A program made the position numbers and the translations under genes. Source: Candidatus Atribacteria bacterium (GTDB taxonomy: Bacteria; Atribacterota; JALVIU01). Taken from it: a stretch of 12,484 bases of DNA. The number at the start of each line of letters is the position of its first letter. Position 1 is the first letter of the stretch. Where the stretch lies: NCBI GenBank assembly GCA_027028665.1, contig JALVIU010000191.1:1-12484 (forward strand), read 5' to 3'. Of the stretch, positions 1 to 9,316 are shown in pieces. The notes under the pieces are model-generated. The model worked only from the letters and a program-made list of their open reading frames with translations, searched no databases and was not told the DNA's origin.

Positions 1-1391
1 ACGATCCTTTCATCTAAGGTTGTAAGCTCATCTATAAATGTTACCCATACTGCCAAAAGATCAAGCTCTATTATCTTGCCCATAGTCTCTTTACTTAGAA
101 ATATGGCATCTTCCAGTGTAGTAGAGGAGAAGGGTTCATTTAGGATAATAATACTATGAGAAGTAGCATGTGATAATATATTATGTATATGTAAAAGCTC
201 ATCTTCCAGTTTTCCGTGTAGATTCTTTATATCCTCTTCTCTTTCAAAATGTGTAAAGAGGTTATCAAATAAAAAGAGTTTGGCCCTTTTCCCGGGTACA
301 GGACACCCTAATCTGGCAAAATAGTGGATCTGACCAAAGCTTCTTGCAAATGTGGTTTTCCCTCCCTGATTTGGACCTGTTACCACAAATATACGCTCTT
401 TTTCTTTCAAATAAAAATCATTTGGGACAATCTGTACATCTTTTGTATTTATAAGTTTATGTGCAAGTAATAGGTCAAAACCCCTATAATTATAGATTTC
501 TTTATCATCCCGAGAAAGCTCAGGATAACAAAAATCTAATCCATTTCTTATAAGTGGGGAGATATAATCCAGGTAGGATATGTAAAATTGTACCTCTCTA
601 TCAAATCTATTTATAATCTCATCTATATACTCTCTGTTTTCAAGATAATAGGTATCAAGTTCTGAAAATACATCTGGATAAAGCCTTGATACCATATCCA
701 ATATTCTTCCCTCTACATAGTTTACCTCAACAGACTCAAGGAGCTTAACGGTATAGGTTTCTACACTGCCCTGTTTAAACTTTTCAAAGGTTTTTAATAC
801 ATCTTTACTATAATCAGGTTCACCATTTCCTTCTGAGACAGTGATTTTATTACCCTTTATAAAGATATTGTATCTTATATTAGAGAGTTTTTCCTTAAGC
901 GATCTTGTCTTCTCACATAGAGATTTAAATCTGTAAGAATCAATATATGATGAAAGATACAACCTGAAATCCAAAAACCCCTGGGAGTTTAACTTCAGGG
1001 CATTTAAGTCACCCAATAGGCCAGTAACTGCATCACAATATACCTCTACCGCTTCTCGATACCACTCCTCTTTCTGGTATTTGTGGTGTAGTTCCTCTGA
1101 TTGATGGAGATATCTACGCATTGTCCGCATTTTATTGGAAAAATCATGAATAGCTTCATAGAGGGCCTTATTGAACTGGAGGTCTTTCATTACCTCATGT
1201 CTATACTTTATCGTATTTATATCTTCAAGGGGGATATAGAAGAGGTGTTTTAGATTATACTCTTTTTTCCAAGAGACAATACCACCTATAATCTGGTCAA
1301 GATTGAGATCTTTTACAAAATCTGAATCACTGATCTTGACCTTTCTTTTACTTTCTTCTTCTTTCCTGAAGAGGATACTGAAAAAAGCCAT
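1..1391 (-). CDS. MutS-domain ATPase, mismatch-repair-like (partial, C-terminus off the left edge)
   Basis: The first 463 codons of a minus-strand gene lie here; the reading frame is open to base 1. The protein starts MAFFSILFRKEEE. Residues from about 30 to 320 form a mostly helical lever/clamp-like region. A MutS domain V ATPase follows, with Walker A GPNQGGKTTF at about 339-348 and a Walker B-like strand IIILNEPFSSTT around residue 419. The segment WVTFIDELTTLDER comes just before the edge. Classical MutS has GPNMGGKST and LLDE; here the P-loop Met is Gln and the Walker B Asp is Asn. No N-terminal mismatch-reading domain (with its FxE motif) is present, so this is a MutS-like paralogue of roughly 500-600 residues, not housekeeping MutS. 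The ATG at 1391 follows a GAGGG ribosome site by 7 nt, and no in-frame start lies upstream. The gene has its own promoter and a fluoride-riboswitch-like leader. Its substrate is unknown. Confidence 0.88.
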   Translation of the reverse strand, partial: MAFFSILFRKEEESKRKVKISDSDFVKDLNLDQIIGGIVSWKKEYNLKHLFYIPLEDINTIKYRHEVMKDLQFNKALYEAIHDFSNKMRTMRRYLHQSEELHHKYQKEEWYREAVEVYCDAVTGLLGDLNALKLNSQGFLDFRLYLSSYIDSYRFKSLCEKTRSLKEKLSNIRYNIFIKGNKITVSEGNGEPDYSKDVLKTFEKFKQGSVETYTVKLLESVEVNYVEGRILDMVSRLYPDVFSELDTYYLENREYIDEIINRFDREVQFYISYLDYISPLIRNGLDFCYPELSRDDKEIYNYRGFDLLLAHKLINTKDVQIVPNDFYLKEKERIFVVTGPNQGGKTTFARSFGQIHYFARLGCPVPGKRAKLFLFDNLFTHFEREEDIKNLHGKLEDELLHIHNILSHATSHSIIILNEPFSSTTLEDAIFLSKETMGKIIELDLLAVWVTFIDELTTLDERI

Positions 1392-1392
1392 T

Positions 1393-1403
1393 GGGAATCC
1401 CTC
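1393..1403 (-). promoter_or_regulatory. Ribosome binding site and candidate expression platform of the MutS-like gene
   Basis: On the minus strand the Shine-Dalgarno GAGGG (1399-1403) is followed by ATTCCC (1393-1398) and then the ATG at 1391. ATTCCC is complementary to GGGAAT inside the aptamer linker (1461-1466). The GGGA of the ribosome site can also pair with the TCCC of aptamer helix P1. No U-run terminator lies between aptamer and start codon. Control of translation initiation is therefore more likely than control of termination. The pairing is seen; its regulatory use is inferred. Confidence 0.45.
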
Positions 1404-1427
1404 ATCCGCATACGATCTCTGATATCA

Positions 1428-1486
1428 GGTAGAAGCTATCAGCCTTTAAGCGGTTCGGGTATTCCCCAGGGGAGCTTCATCCCATC
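1428..1486 (-). promoter_or_regulatory. Fluoride riboswitch (crcB motif) aptamer
   Basis: The leader RNA of the MutS-like gene matches the crcB/fluoride aptamer in order. A P1 stem GGG/CCC encloses AUGAAGCU. The conserved GAACCGC follows, then a short helix and the hallmark GGCUGAUAGCUUCUACC. The pseudoknot is intact: AAGCU (1473-1477) pairs with AGCUU (1433-1437). The Thermotoga petrophila aptamer, as I recall it, has AGGCC with GGCCU at this place, so complementarity is kept while bases change. An extra GGGGAAUACCC stretch sits between P1 and the AACCGC strand. Fluoride riboswitches are ON switches, so fluoride should raise expression of the downstream gene. Confidence 0.85.
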
Positions 1487-1489
1487 TGT

Positions 1490-1517
1490 ATTATATCAAA
1501 ATCGGAGATTATGTCAA
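1490..1517 (-). promoter_or_regulatory. Sigma70-type promoter of the MutS-like gene
   Basis: The minus strand has a perfect -35 TTGACA (1512-1517), a 16-bp spacer and a perfect -10 TATAAT (1490-1495) with an upstream TG (extended -10, TGATATAAT). Transcription should start near 1483, at the first bases of the fluoride aptamer. This gives a leader of about 92 nt. Confidence 0.88.
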
Positions 1518-3279: not shown

Positions 3280-4497
3280 TTAAGGTATCTCTTCCATTAC
3301 CTTAGATACTATTTCATAGGCATCCCCTGCCCTATCCCAATCTACATATATAAGGATATCTGTTTTAATAGTCGCCATTTCCAATATATTTATCCCTGCC
3401 TCCCCCAAAGGGGTGGTGAGTTTGGATATTACACCTGGTGTATCTATAAAGTTCTGACTCTCTGTGGATATAAGACCAATATTGTCTTTCACTGTAATGG
3501 ATTTCAAAAGTGGATGCTCCACTACTATAGGATGTAACATATTGTAAGACAAAGATGCACTTTCTGTCTGTACATAGATTCCTATATATTTTGTACCAAC
3601 AGATACACCATATATGGCAATATTTTTCTCTGCCAGAGGGCTTATGAGTCTATCCAGTAGGCCTGGTGTGGTCATTATCTCATCACCAACTATGGTGATC
3701 ATGGAGAGCTTTTCCTTATGTAGTGTTGCCCTTTTCTCAAAATAGCCCACGATCTCTGTACCTTCAACATCAAGATCCCCATGTCTAAAGTGTATCACCT
3801 TTGATCTCATTTTGGGTGTCTTAAAACGAAGTGCATTGGGATGTATCACCTTGGCACCTCTATCTGCAAGTACGCCCATCTCCTTTACCGATATCTCTTT
3901 TAAAATCTCTGCACCTTCTACCTTTCTTGGATCACCACTTAAGACCCCTTCTGCATCTGTAACAATAATAACCCAATCGGCATTCAAGAAGTTTCCAAGG
4001 GCATATGCGGTAACATCTGAACCACCTCTTCCTAAGGTAGTCACCTTTCCTTCAAGGCTTCTGCCCAAAAATCCACATACAACAGGGACAACTCCTCTCT
4101 CTATAAGGGGTTCTAAGAACTTTTCTCCTGCCTCTATGCTCTGTTTTGGAAGGATCTTTGCCCCCCATGGGGTATTATCTGTGATAATGGGGAAATCCTC
4201 TCTGTTTGGATCAAAGTACTGTGCCTCTATTCCCATAGACCTGAGGGTTGCAGCCATGATTCGTGCAGATGTAGCCTCTCCCATTGCCACGATATCAGAT
4301 AGGAATGTATCATCAATACTTTCCCCTGTTGCACTCTTTGCTGTATTTAAGAGATTATCTGTTACACCTGCCATGGCAGATACAACAACTATCATCTCAT
4401 CACCCTTTTTTGCCTTTTTAGCAACTGCACCTGCTGCAAGCCTTATACGCTCTGCATCACCAACACTTGTACCACCAAACTTTACTACAATCCTCAC
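3280..4497 (-). CDS. lysC: Aspartate kinase with two ACT domains (LysC)
   Basis: The enzyme phosphorylates aspartate, the first step of the aspartate family (lysine, methionine, threonine). With the start used here it has 405 residues. KFGGTS (6-11) and LGRGGSDVTA (155-164) mark the amino acid kinase domain, and two ACT-type allosteric domains fill about 265-400, so end-product inhibition is likely. I chose GTG at 4497 because a strong AAAGGAGGT (4504-4512) ends 6 nt before it. A longer frame beginning with GTG at 4515 would place this ribosome site inside the coding sequence. The protein then starts MRIVVKFGGTS, normal for the family. It is the first gene of the operon and lies downstream of the lysine riboswitch. 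No homoserine dehydrogenase fusion is present. Confidence 0.95.
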   Translation of the reverse strand: MRIVVKFGGTSVGDAERIRLAAGAVAKKAKKGDEMIVVVSAMAGVTDNLLNTAKSATGESIDDTFLSDIVAMGEATSARIMAATLRSMGIEAQYFDPNREDFPIITDNTPWGAKILPKQSIEAGEKFLEPLIERGVVPVVCGFLGRSLEGKVTTLGRGGSDVTAYALGNFLNADWVIIVTDAEGVLSGDPRKVEGAEILKEISVKEMGVLADRGAKVIHPNALRFKTPKMRSKVIHFRHGDLDVEGTEIVGYFEKRATLHKEKLSMITIVGDEIMTTPGLLDRLISPLAEKNIAIYGVSVGTKYIGIYVQTESASLSYNMLHPIVVEHPLLKSITVKDNIGLISTESQNFIDTPGVISKLTTPLGEAGINILEMATIKTDILIYVDWDRAGDAYEIVSKVMEEIP

Positions 4498-4583
4498 TCT
4501 ATTACCTCCTTTCACTAATATGCAATATCACTACTCATCCGCATCCCTAAATCCTTACTTCCAAAGAGGGAATCCATCTACCT

Positions 4584-4745: not shown

Positions 4746-4770
4746 TTTTGATCTCTCGAAAGACCCCTAA

Positions 4771-4951
4771 CTTAAGATAGCGCTCCACGAAAGGTCGGGT
4801 ACCCCTTCCGTGACAGTTTTATGGTTATTCACCATAAACCCAGCCTTAAGGGATCGGCCATCCCTTATGACTTCGGCAGAATCACCTTTCACTCCGGGTC
4901 AAAGATGCCGTCTCGCCGGAGGTACTCATTGATTCCGCACCTCTATCTTAA
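4771..4951 (-). promoter_or_regulatory. Lysine riboswitch (L box)
   Basis: The minus strand shows the lysine-aptamer hallmarks in order: AGAGGTGCG, AGTA, GAAAGGTGATTCTGCCGAAG, GGCTGGG, CTGTCA and GTGGAGCGCTATC. Helix P1 is formed by TTAAGATAG (4943-4951) with CTATCTTAA (4772-4780), 9 bp. With lysine bound, P1 forms and the downstream terminator folds. Without lysine, the P1 3' strand can pair with 4728-4737 as a 10-bp antiterminator, allowing transcription of lysC-dapA-dapB. The mechanism is known for this class; both alternative pairings are visible here. Confidence 0.96.
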
Positions 4952-4974
4952 TACACCTATATTCAATTTTTTTT

Positions 4975-6249: not shown

Positions 6250-7194
6250 CTAAAAAGACTTTGAGTCTCTGAGCAATGCCTTTGCGGTCCCTTCATCTGT
6301 TATAAGGGTATCTATATAACCTCCCCTTATCGCTCCTAATAAAGGCTTTACCTTTACCTCTCCTCCTGATACACCTATTACATTTTCTACCTCTTTTATA
6401 TCATCTAAATCAAGTCCTATTATTCTGCTGTCAAGCGATGTTTTGATCTTATCTCCATGAATATCATAAAATCTCCCAAGAATTTCTCCTACTGCTCCTT
6501 TTGCCTTTACCTCTTCAAGTTCCCTGTAGGTAAGAAATCCCACGCGTATAAGGGTTGACTCAGGGCTTACATCACCTATAGAAACCAATCCAATATTCGC
6601 CCTTTTTGCCATCTTAAAGATAAAGGCCACCTGTTCTTGATTCATAAGTATACGGCTTGTTTCTTTGCTATCTGTAATAGCAGGTGCATGGAGGTAGTAA
6701 CTTTTCCCGCCAAATATATTGGAGATTTTACTTGCAATCTCAAAGGGATTTTCCCGTGAGCCAGGAGCAAGTCCTCCCATTATAGAGACAACTTTAAGAC
6801 CTGAAATTTTTTTGGGACGAAGATATGGAATAATATAAGAAAGAGTGGAACCCCAGGCAGTTGTAAGCACCATATTATTTCTGAGAATCCTACGAAGGTA
6901 TATAGCACCAGCTCTACCCAGAGAATTTTTAATCTTTTCTATAGAGCTATCCACTCTGGGAACTACCATCGCATCTTTTAAACCAAAGGCATCTTTTAAG
7001 TCTCGCTCAATCTGGAGGCAATTTGTAAGAGGATCTATTATATCAATATAAACGAGGCCCTCTTTTTTTGCCTTATTTAGAATGCGTGTCACTTTTATCC
7101 TTGATATATCAAGCATATCAGCAATTTCCTTTTGTGTTAGACCTTCAATATAATAGAGCCATGCCACTCTTACTAAAAGTTCTCGCTGATACAT
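6250..7194 (-). CDS. SorC/DeoR-type sugar-binding transcriptional regulator
   Basis: This is a cytosolic DNA-binding regulator of about 314 residues. An N-terminal helix-turn-helix (about 19-41, GLTQKEIADMLDISRIKVTRIL) is followed by a SorC sugar-phosphate-binding domain. Typical blocks are TAWGSTLS, VVSIMGGLAPG, a central NIGLVSIGDVSPESTLIRVG and the C-terminal GAIRGGYIDTLITDEGTAKALL. The family binds phosphorylated sugars and controls sugar uptake or catabolism genes. I chose the ATG at 7194 because AAGGAGAG precedes it closely; a longer frame from 7224 would run through that ribosome site and add 10 residues. The gene is divergent from the exported propeller gene and lies just upstream of wecB. 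No sugar catabolic genes are in the window, so the target is unknown. An inverted repeat upstream suggests autoregulation. Confidence 0.88.
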   Translation of the reverse strand: MYQRELLVRVAWLYYIEGLTQKEIADMLDISRIKVTRILNKAKKEGLVYIDIIDPLTNCLQIERDLKDAFGLKDAMVVPRVDSSIEKIKNSLGRAGAIYLRRILRNNMVLTTAWGSTLSYIIPYLRPKKISGLKVVSIMGGLAPGSRENPFEIASKISNIFGGKSYYLHAPAITDSKETSRILMNQEQVAFIFKMAKRANIGLVSIGDVSPESTLIRVGFLTYRELEEVKAKGAVGEILGRFYDIHGDKIKTSLDSRIIGLDLDDIKEVENVIGVSGGEVKVKPLLGAIRGGYIDTLITDEGTAKALLRDSKSF

Positions 7195-7345: not shown

Positions 7346-9316
7346 ATGAGGAAAAATATTATAACTGTAATAATTATCCTCTGCATATTGCTATACTTTT
7401 CATCTATCGGTTTATCAGAGCCAATAAAGATTTTTGAAGGCCATTACTCTCCTATAAGCGATTTTACCATTACTTATGATAAAAATACCCTTATATCATT
7501 AGACTCTGAAGGAAAAATAAAGTTCTGGTCCCTCAATTCTTATAAAGTAATAAATGAGTTACATCTTTACAATGCACCTTATTTTCTAAGTATTGATGTC
7601 TCTCAGAGTTCAAGATATCTTGCACTCTCCGGCAGTGAAATACTATGGATATATGATGTGGTTAAAAAAAAGGTTATATCTAAACTAAATGGTGTGGAAA
7701 GTATAGGTCTCTTTATAGGAGATGATACCTTGCTCTATCTAAGGGATGGATATATAAATATGGTTACCCTGGATGATAAAGCCCTTTCCAAAAAGATAAG
7801 GTTTCCATATACTCCACCTGATTTCATATCTGTATCACCCTTAAAGAGGTTTCTCGCATTGGGAAGTAATGAATATCTTATGATTTATGATTTAGAAAGA
7901 GGGAAACTAATACGAAAGATAAAGAGAGATATATTGTCGTTTTCATTTTTAGGAGATAAAAGATTTATATTTCAGGCCAAAGATGGCATATATATAGATA
8001 ATATAAATGGAAGAACCCCTGCACTTTTACCCATTAAGATACACTCTATCTCCTATATTGAGGGCTCTCCTTATAAAAAAAGATTTGTAGTGTCTACAGA
8101 AGAAAAACTCATATTATACACTATTGAAGGGGGTAAAGTAAAAGAAGAATTTTCAAAGGAGTTCGAATCTATTCAAAAATGGATATACATAAATGACAAA
8201 AAATCTGCCTTCCTGCCTGTCGGAGCAAATGAAATAGCAGTAGTTTCTACACCAGATCTATCAGCAATTGCAAACCTTGGGGGCTATTCACTTCCTGTGG
8301 ATAAGGTAGAATTTTCACCATCAGGTAGATTCTTGGCATTAGGTTTTAAGGATAAAGAATCTTATATAATAAAAGTATATGATATGCAGAAGACTCAGTT
8401 ATTGGAAAGTGATGTATTTTCTTCTCTTATAGATTTTGAGATATCGAAAACAGATGATCGCATAGGCATATTGAGTCCAGATTATGAGCTTTATATATAT
8501 AATCTCAAGAAAAATAGTGTAGAGAAGGTGATAGAAGAAGTAAAAGAAGAATTACTGTTATTTAGAAAAAAATGGCTCTACACATTCTTTGGATATAGCA
8601 ATCTGGGTATTTATAATATCGATGATGGTTCCTTTGATAATCTAAATCTAAACAGTATGCCATTTCTTCATCCTACCATCTCAAATAATGGTACCATTGC
8701 TACATTGGGAGAAGACGGAAATATCTGGGTATACATGAGAGGTAAAAAGAATGCAAAAAAGATAGAACTTCCTGATGATGTAAAAGAAAAACTTCAGGCA
8801 GAGGAGTTAGGGATAGATCTTCCCCGGGTAACATTTACAGAAAAAAGGGGCGAGATCCTCTTATCTATACCTGAAGAAAATGGATTTACCATAGAAAAAA
8901 TAGAAAACTTTAAGTCAAAAAAGAAATGGAAGGCAAAAGGTCCTATTATAGGAACAATTGATGGGGGTAGATATTATCTACAAACAGTCTTTGACAAAGG
9001 AAAGACAACTCTTTTTATACTTAATCGTAATTTTAAAAAGGTAAAGGAAATAGAGATAGGTGAAGGGCTTATATCATCCTATACATATGCAAAGGGTATA
9101 CTTGTTGTAGGTGATTACTGTGGAAATGTAAAGTTTATAAAAATAAAAAATATGGAAACACTTGTAGCAAAGGTGTTCAATGATGGAAACTGGATCATAA
9201 TAAATGATAAAGGAGAGTTCTTTGGAAGCAAAGGTATAGATAAATATCTCTCACTTACAAAAGAGGAATTTGATAAAAGATATAAAAAAGATATAATGAA
9301 AAAATTTTTTAAATAG
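7346..9316 (+). CDS. Exported WD40-like beta-propeller protein
   Basis: This 656-residue protein has an N-terminal signal peptide: basic MRKN, a hydrophobic core at about 5-20 and a likely cleavage after GLS at residue 24. It is probably secreted or held at the outer face of the membrane. The rest is a series of degenerate WD40-type blades. Blade 1 begins GHYSPISDF and ends IKFWSL (32-63). A clear later blade is VDKVEFSPSGRFLALG (about 318 onward), and YDL/YNL/YDM blade ends recur. The closing segment NWIIINDKGEFFGSKGIDKYLSL (about 615-637, two parts: NWIIINDKGEFFGS and KGIDKYLSL) resembles the tail of WD40-caspase (peptidase C14) proteins. No caspase domain or other catalytic motif is visible. 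The short Lys-rich C-terminus ends at 9316, overlapping the convergent HAD gene by 8 bp. Its partner and function are unknown; a protein-binding scaffold is the likely role. Confidence 0.8.
   Translation: MRKNIITVIIILCILLYFSSIGLSEPIKIFEGHYSPISDFTITYDKNTLISLDSEGKIKFWSLNSYKVINELHLYNAPYFLSIDVSQSSRYLALSGSEILWIYDVVKKKVISKLNGVESIGLFIGDDTLLYLRDGYINMVTLDDKALSKKIRFPYTPPDFISVSPLKRFLALGSNEYLMIYDLERGKLIRKIKRDILSFSFLGDKRFIFQAKDGIYIDNINGRTPALLPIKIHSISYIEGSPYKKRFVVSTEEKLILYTIEGGKVKEEFSKEFESIQKWIYINDKKSAFLPVGANEIAVVSTPDLSAIANLGGYSLPVDKVEFSPSGRFLALGFKDKESYIIKVYDMQKTQLLESDVFSSLIDFEISKTDDRIGILSPDYELYIYNLKKNSVEKVIEEVKEELLLFRKKWLYTFFGYSNLGIYNIDDGSFDNLNLNSMPFLHPTISNNGTIATLGEDGNIWVYMRGKKNAKKIELPDDVKEKLQAEELGIDLPRVTFTEKRGEILLSIPEENGFTIEKIENFKSKKKWKAKGPIIGTIDGGRYYLQTVFDKGKTTLFILNRNFKKVKEIEIGEGLISSYTYAKGILVVGDYCGNVKFIKIKNMETLVAKVFNDGNWIIINDKGEFFGSKGIDKYLSLTKEEFDKRYKKDIMKKFFK

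Follow-up and report, generated by a model that had tools for sequence, protein, structure and literature searches.

A predicted fluoride riboswitch ahead of a core-only MutS-like ATPase in an Atribacteria contig, and the recurrence of this arrangement in other phyla

The stretch of DNA analysed here (the window) comprises 12,484 nt of a contig from Candidatus Atribacteria bacterium, and its region 1493-1423 on the minus strand is, as judged from its sequence, a fluoride (crcB) riboswitch, with fluoride binding as the predicted activity. The gene that follows encodes a MutS-like ATPase, hereafter MutS-A, which in relatives of this organism is coupled to a second gene of the same kind, MutS-B. 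Taken as a whole, the explanation that we favour, with a probability of about 60%, is that the riboswitch activates an operon dedicated to the fluoride response, in which the first gene would supply one subunit of an ATPase pair, and that this MutS-A/MutS-B pair would remodel a target jammed by fluoride.

The fluoride aptamer and the gene that follows it

The leader is preceded by a sigma-70 promoter (1517-1490, minus strand) that matches the consensus at 12 of 12 positions (TTGACA, a spacing of 16 and TATAAT), as an earlier note on this DNA had pointed out, and that also carries the TG of an extended -10 element, a few bases 5′ of the P1 stem. The same note had placed a fluoride riboswitch between 1391 and 1517, a span that proved correct, and its suggestion to run the Rfam model RF01734 was followed. 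A cmscan of the window matched the aptamer with 32.0 bits (E=2.6e-7), and a whole-genome search found it to be the sole RF01734 match in the MAG (E=3.5e-7). Because this score falls 2 bits under the Rfam gathering cut-off of 34 bits, which is a database cut-off and not a structural feature, the default scan at the gathering threshold did not report the aptamer, and it was recovered by an E-value search. The low score is probably due to a 10-nt insertion and a weak P1, which together make up the departure from the consensus. A covariance model built exclusively from other loci gave 37.9 bits (E=1.2e-11), the next-best site in the window reaching 7.8 bits, and the aptamer aligned end to end to both models (positions 1-64 of RF01734 and 1-57 of the held-out model).

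All the conserved elements that had been claimed, namely the GAUGAAGCU loop, AACCGC and GGCUGAUAGCUUCUAC, are present, within an arrangement of two conserved stems, GAUG loop, AACCGC and the CUGAU..CUAC consensus. According to the RF01734 alignment and the sequence, the P1 5′ arm GGG (1483-1481, minus strand, as are all leader features) pairs with 1472-1470, which gives three G-C pairs followed by a mismatch; the second stem, GCU/GGC, occupies 1451-1442 in the RF01734 alignment. The pseudoknot between the loop strand GAAGCU (1478-1473) and the 3′ strand AGCUUC (1437-1432) can form six base pairs, one more than the five first claimed, and these pairs covary in 49 aptamers of relatives, a signal that is partly circular in that the sequences were chosen with this pseudoknot. 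The insertion, GGGGAAUACCC (1467-1457), separates P1 from the second stem and might form either a local hairpin or an anti-Shine-Dalgarno strand. Hairpins occupy the same position in relatives L049, L066, L039 and L114, and since the last three are small and unrelated in sequence (CGGAGCAAUCCG, GGGGUUAGGACCC and GGGGUAAUUUCCCC, respectively), an accessory hairpin is tolerated at this site.

The next gene downstream does encode a MutS-domain protein, as had been noted. MutS-A starts at 1391 on the minus strand, 7 nt after the GAGGG motif, and extends to position 3, where the contig end cuts the gene after 463 of the approximately 511 aa typical of the family. It matches Pfam MutS_V (E=9.9e-18), no other Pfam domain being seen in it; in full-length relatives MutS_V is also the only Pfam match above cut-off, and domain V with its P-loop, the mark of the MutS superfamily ATPases (PF00488), is recognised with E values of ~1e-17 to 1e-23. 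The data do not establish the earlier reading that this gene stands in place of a fluoride exporter. The MAG, ~90% complete, yielded no CrcB, but in related genomes CrcB coexists with the riboswitch-MutS operon. As the note had mentioned, the link between crcB motifs and mutS genes is in the literature, and it is not new, because Weinberg et al. (2010) named “DNA repair (mutS)” among the crcB-associated genes (PMC2864571). The window shares with that published association the aptamer core and the kind of downstream gene; it differs in that the gene is recognised as half of a paired core-only MutS, a point not resolved in the literature searched, and in an insertion that may double as anti-Shine-Dalgarno strand. 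As far as the literature searched is concerned, the tandem core-only pair, a change in Walker B, a link to dynamin-like proteins and a translational variant of the switch are new.

Other elements were observed in the window. A 28-bp near-perfect palindrome, GATAGAGGGG..CCCCTCTATC (1556-1583), without a U-run, lies between the end of a dapB-like gene and the riboswitch promoter and is perhaps a terminator or insulator. A lysine riboswitch (4770-4953, minus strand; 131.8 bits) precedes an aspartokinase-like gene (3280-4515) that is followed by two dapA-/dapB-like genes, forming an ordinary lysine operon. Finally, the protein encoded at 7346-9316 on the plus strand (656 aa) probably has a signal peptide, contains WD40-like beta-propeller repeats and weakly matches a large number of eukaryotic propeller models.

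Recurrence of the MutS-A/MutS-B pair and its genomic surroundings

The contig ends before any MutS-B, so the existence of the pair in this organism is deduced from relatives. Four other genomes of the phylum, including two Candidatus Caldatribacterium and one Atribacteria MAG (L065, L077 and L066), carry MutS-A homologues 48-51% identical to that of the window with an aptamer directly upstream, and in each of these loci a second paralogous MutS-like gene comes next. In the phylum set, intact MutS-A was present in five genomes (G000, G004, G018, G024 and G048), with an aptamer directly upstream in 5/5, and these five were all among the 11 of 50 genomes that have an aptamer (2e-4 under an assumption of independence that does not hold for genomes).

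Searching 84,980 species genomes yielded 307 relatives, of which the best 80 were kept; they belong to Firmicutes, Chloroflexi, Proteobacteria, Acidobacteria, Actinobacteria, Spirochaetes and other groups. Both genes of the tandem were resolved in 74 of these best 80 loci, and in 57 of them the MutS-A stop and the MutS-B start share 4 nt (ATGA). The survey of homologues that the earlier note had recommended was carried out: using a covariance model trained partly on aptamers from the same loci, cmsearch of the best 80 loci detected 158 fluoride aptamers (E≤0.001) in 920 kb, and an aptamer lies at most 700 nt upstream of MutS-A, in the same direction, in 54/80, and 72/80 have one within ~6 kb, some of the remaining eight loci being cut by contig ends. 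RF01734 at its gathering cut-off, which is independent of that training, found 17 matches in 8 of the 11 loci that lacked an upstream aptamer by pattern scan. When 12 whole genomes were compared, RF01734 gave 105 matches in ~80.5 Mb, and ~35 aptamers (model R1) fell in the 0.15 Mb around MutS-A. At the level of sequence, these results show the MutS-A/B pair to be a recurrent, predicted fluoride-response module across many phyla.

Individual loci showed further particularities. A Paraburkholderia genome has its 34 fluoride riboswitch matches all in one stretch of ~126 kb, on the contig that also carries MutS-A/B (L117; G069, contig C3:51350-177321), and most of the 20 matches of an Acidobacteriaceae genome lie within ~130 kb (L109; G068). 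At L041 (G006:C4:64000-76000), the MutS-A frame, near a fluoride riboswitch, is broken by stops and a dynamin-like frame downstream of the fluoride riboswitch also looks broken; apparently, this operon copy is decaying or the assembly contains errors.

Enolase, a classic fluoride target, is encoded nearby in 20 of the best 80 of the 307 loci, and further recurrent neighbours in the same sample are CrcB, CLC and Na+/H+ antiporters. A dynamin-like GTPase (Dynamin_N of Pfam, lowest E 6e-30) is present at most 6 kb away in 25 of these 80, a count made from HMM matches, given that single-linkage neighbour clusters may merge unrelated GTPases. Thirteen genes of the dynamin cluster in the best 80 loci have a fluoride aptamer of their own, and at L114, L118 and L127 a single aptamer leads dynamin, MutS-A and MutS-B in this order. 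At two further loci (L042, 1017-3427, and L045, 589-3009, both minus strand) a fluoride riboswitch is followed by a universal stress protein and a dynamin-like GTPase with no MutS-A/B, which suggests that dynamin enters the fluoride regulon on its own. No paper joining fluoride, riboswitch and dynamin was found in the literature searched; a fluoride island that contains eno, uspA, ppaC and crcB was already known (PMC5533749). In the fluoride-regulated stretch of L036, a gene of the chromate-transporter family, possibly an anion exporter, is located between MutS-B and the dynamin-like gene (6338-6895, minus strand). Anti-phage defence was considered and rejected as the role of these genes: PADLOC gave no match to MutS-A and only weak ATPase matches to MutS-B, the 48-bit match of the dynamin-like GTPase to LeoA/LeoBC was read as a generic dynamin match, and the fluoride context argues against it.

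Architecture of the pair and its possible role under fluoride

Full-length MutS-A and MutS-B of Thermoanaerobacter were modelled with AlphaFold (pLDDT 86, pTM 0.84), and almost the entire length of both models matches MutS and MutS2; residues ~15-500 align to ~260-770 of E. coli MutS (Z 24-31), a region made up of the core/lever and ATPase domains. Both models lack the mismatch-recognition (I) and connector (II) domains, their clamp is shortened to a beta-hairpin plus a low-confidence loop, and the relatives end at ~500-520 aa, right after the ATPase, so that a KOW/SMR tail of the MutS2 type is also missing. Walker A is intact (GPNQGGKTT/GANQGGKST). Ordinary MutS proteins carry Asp-Glu in Walker B. 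In contrast, Asn-Glu was found in 58/58 MutS-A and 47/47 MutS-B (105 sequences), a natural counterpart of the artificial change in E. coli MutS D693N (3K0S). The Walker B motif of MutS stabilises the Mg2+ water shell, and its substitution abolishes repair (PMC3848065). The H-loop His is retained in MutS-B and replaced by Phe in 58/58 MutS-A. In a tree of the ATPase region the two proteins form separate clades (support 98/97 and 94/96), both set apart from the phylum's ordinary MutS genes. Given the missing domains, the Walker-B Asn and the asymmetry between A and B, mismatch repair is an unlikely role for the pair, and an asymmetric heterodimer, which the gene coupling also favours, is likely.

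Comparison with known families placed the pair outside each of them. With MutS1 and MSH2-MSH6-MSH3 it shares the fold of domains III and V and Walker A, and with MSH2-MSH6 presumably the use of two different subunits; it differs in the absence of domains I and II, the reduced clamp and the Walker-B Asn for Asp, and its scores of 73-89 bits fall below the equivalog cut-offs, which are 480 and 642. MutS2 (TIGR01069) is similar in combining core/lever and an ABC-type ATPase without mismatch-recognition and connector domains, but MutS-A/B lack the KOW and SMR domains, come as two distinct subunits and have NE instead of DE in Walker B, with 56-82 bits against a cut-off of 400. The lysine 5,6-aminomutase reactivase ATPase KamC (NF052383) resembles the pair in size (508 model positions) and in being a MutS-like ATPase; it is, by annotation only, an enzyme reactivase and a precedent for such an ATPase outside DNA repair; the pair reaches 43-77 bits of the 300 required by that model, no aminomutase genes were seen near it, and no paper joining MutS and KamC was found in the literature searched.

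Our best guess, by analogy with KamC and with MutS2 on ribosomes, is that the pair has an ATP-driven remodelling or reactivation role. With lower confidence than for the riboswitch step, we propose that a MutS-A/MutS-B heterodimer would spend ATP on opening or remodelling a fluoride-jammed target, either a protein or a membrane; the enolase and dynamin-like GTPase neighbours suggest fluoride-poisoned enzymes or membranes as that target. A more specific version can be put forward tentatively: the pair may be a hitherto undescribed two-subunit fluoride-resistance machine that frees trapped enzymes or membranes together with the dynamin-like GTPase, the Walker-B change from Asp to Asn in both subunits perhaps avoiding self-trapping by Mg-fluoride. 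Counting against remodelling, the MutS fold is able to bind DNA even when domains I and II are missing. An alternative is a protein acting, like other MutS paralogues, on branched or damaged DNA, fluoride being the agent that damages DNA or stalls replication, in line with the MutS fold, the intact P-loop and the DNA-damaging stress suggested by Weinberg et al. (PMC2864571). We consider such a role rather unlikely, and the fluoride-linked damage proposed in the earlier note is weakened as far as DNA is concerned, since this is a core-only, two-subunit family with a Walker-B Asn, shortened clamp and neither mismatch-recognition nor connector domain, and the genes around it encode enolase, dynamin-like GTPases, antiporters and fluoride exporters, no DNA-repair gene being seen to recur among the best 80 of the 307 loci. 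It is quite unlikely that the pair clears stalled ribosomes or another translation complex in the manner of MutS2, with fluoride as the stalling agent. The pair does have the architecture of a tailless MutS2, the best fold matches include MutS2 structures, and MutS2 splits collided ribosomes (PMC10897456), but ~500-520 aa leave no room for the KOW/SMR domains that recruit MutS2 to collisions, and translation genes do not recur nearby in the best 80 of the 307 loci.

The leader as a putative switch and the meaning of the pair

When the free leader was folded, the insertion paired with GGGAUUCCC (1401-1393), which overlaps the Shine-Dalgarno sequence GAGGG (1403-1399) and buries it (GGG unpaired 0-0.02), and CUGAUA of the aptamer core (1442-1437) paired with the downstream UAUCAG (1424-1419) in a putative anti-aptamer stem that is part of the MFE structure. 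Once the aptamer was forced, the energy model left GGG unpaired at 0.35-0.37. The insertion/Shine-Dalgarno duplex was computed at -13.7 kcal/mol, in folding energies that leave out the pseudoknot, Mg2+ and fluoride, and a duplex as strong occurred in 7/2000 shuffled downstream sequences and 12/2000 shuffled insertions. Because the insertion pairs with the ribosome-binding site, we infer from these models a translational ON switch: without fluoride, that pairing would block translation, and with fluoride, the aptamer would fold and free the ribosome-binding site. A terminator scan found no terminator near the window leader; the U-run at codons 2-4 (GGCUUUUUUC) lies six bases beyond the sequestering stem, and a transcription terminator there is unlikely. 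Close orthologues (L036, L037, L039 and L050) use long terminators instead, the 3′ half of the aptamer itself serving as their 5′ arm, and the translational platform is therefore not conserved. That a real aptamer belongs here to a decayed switch, with MutS-A constitutively expressed in this organism, would fit the score under the Rfam cut-off, the weak P1 and the lack of an orthologue-type terminator, but is very improbable in view of the intact core nucleotides and pseudoknot, the perfect promoter just ahead of P1 and a complementarity between insertion and ribosome-binding site that exceeds chance (7/2000 shuffles as strong).

The observation made in 2010 of fluoride riboswitches ahead of “mutS” had stood as a DNA-repair puzzle. 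The presence of a core-only MutS pair in fluoride regulons turns it into a testable question, namely what use an ATP-driven machine may have under fluoride. Among the carriers of intact copies are Thermoanaerobacter wiegelii and members of Paraburkholderia, bacteria whose cultured strains would permit removal of the genes.
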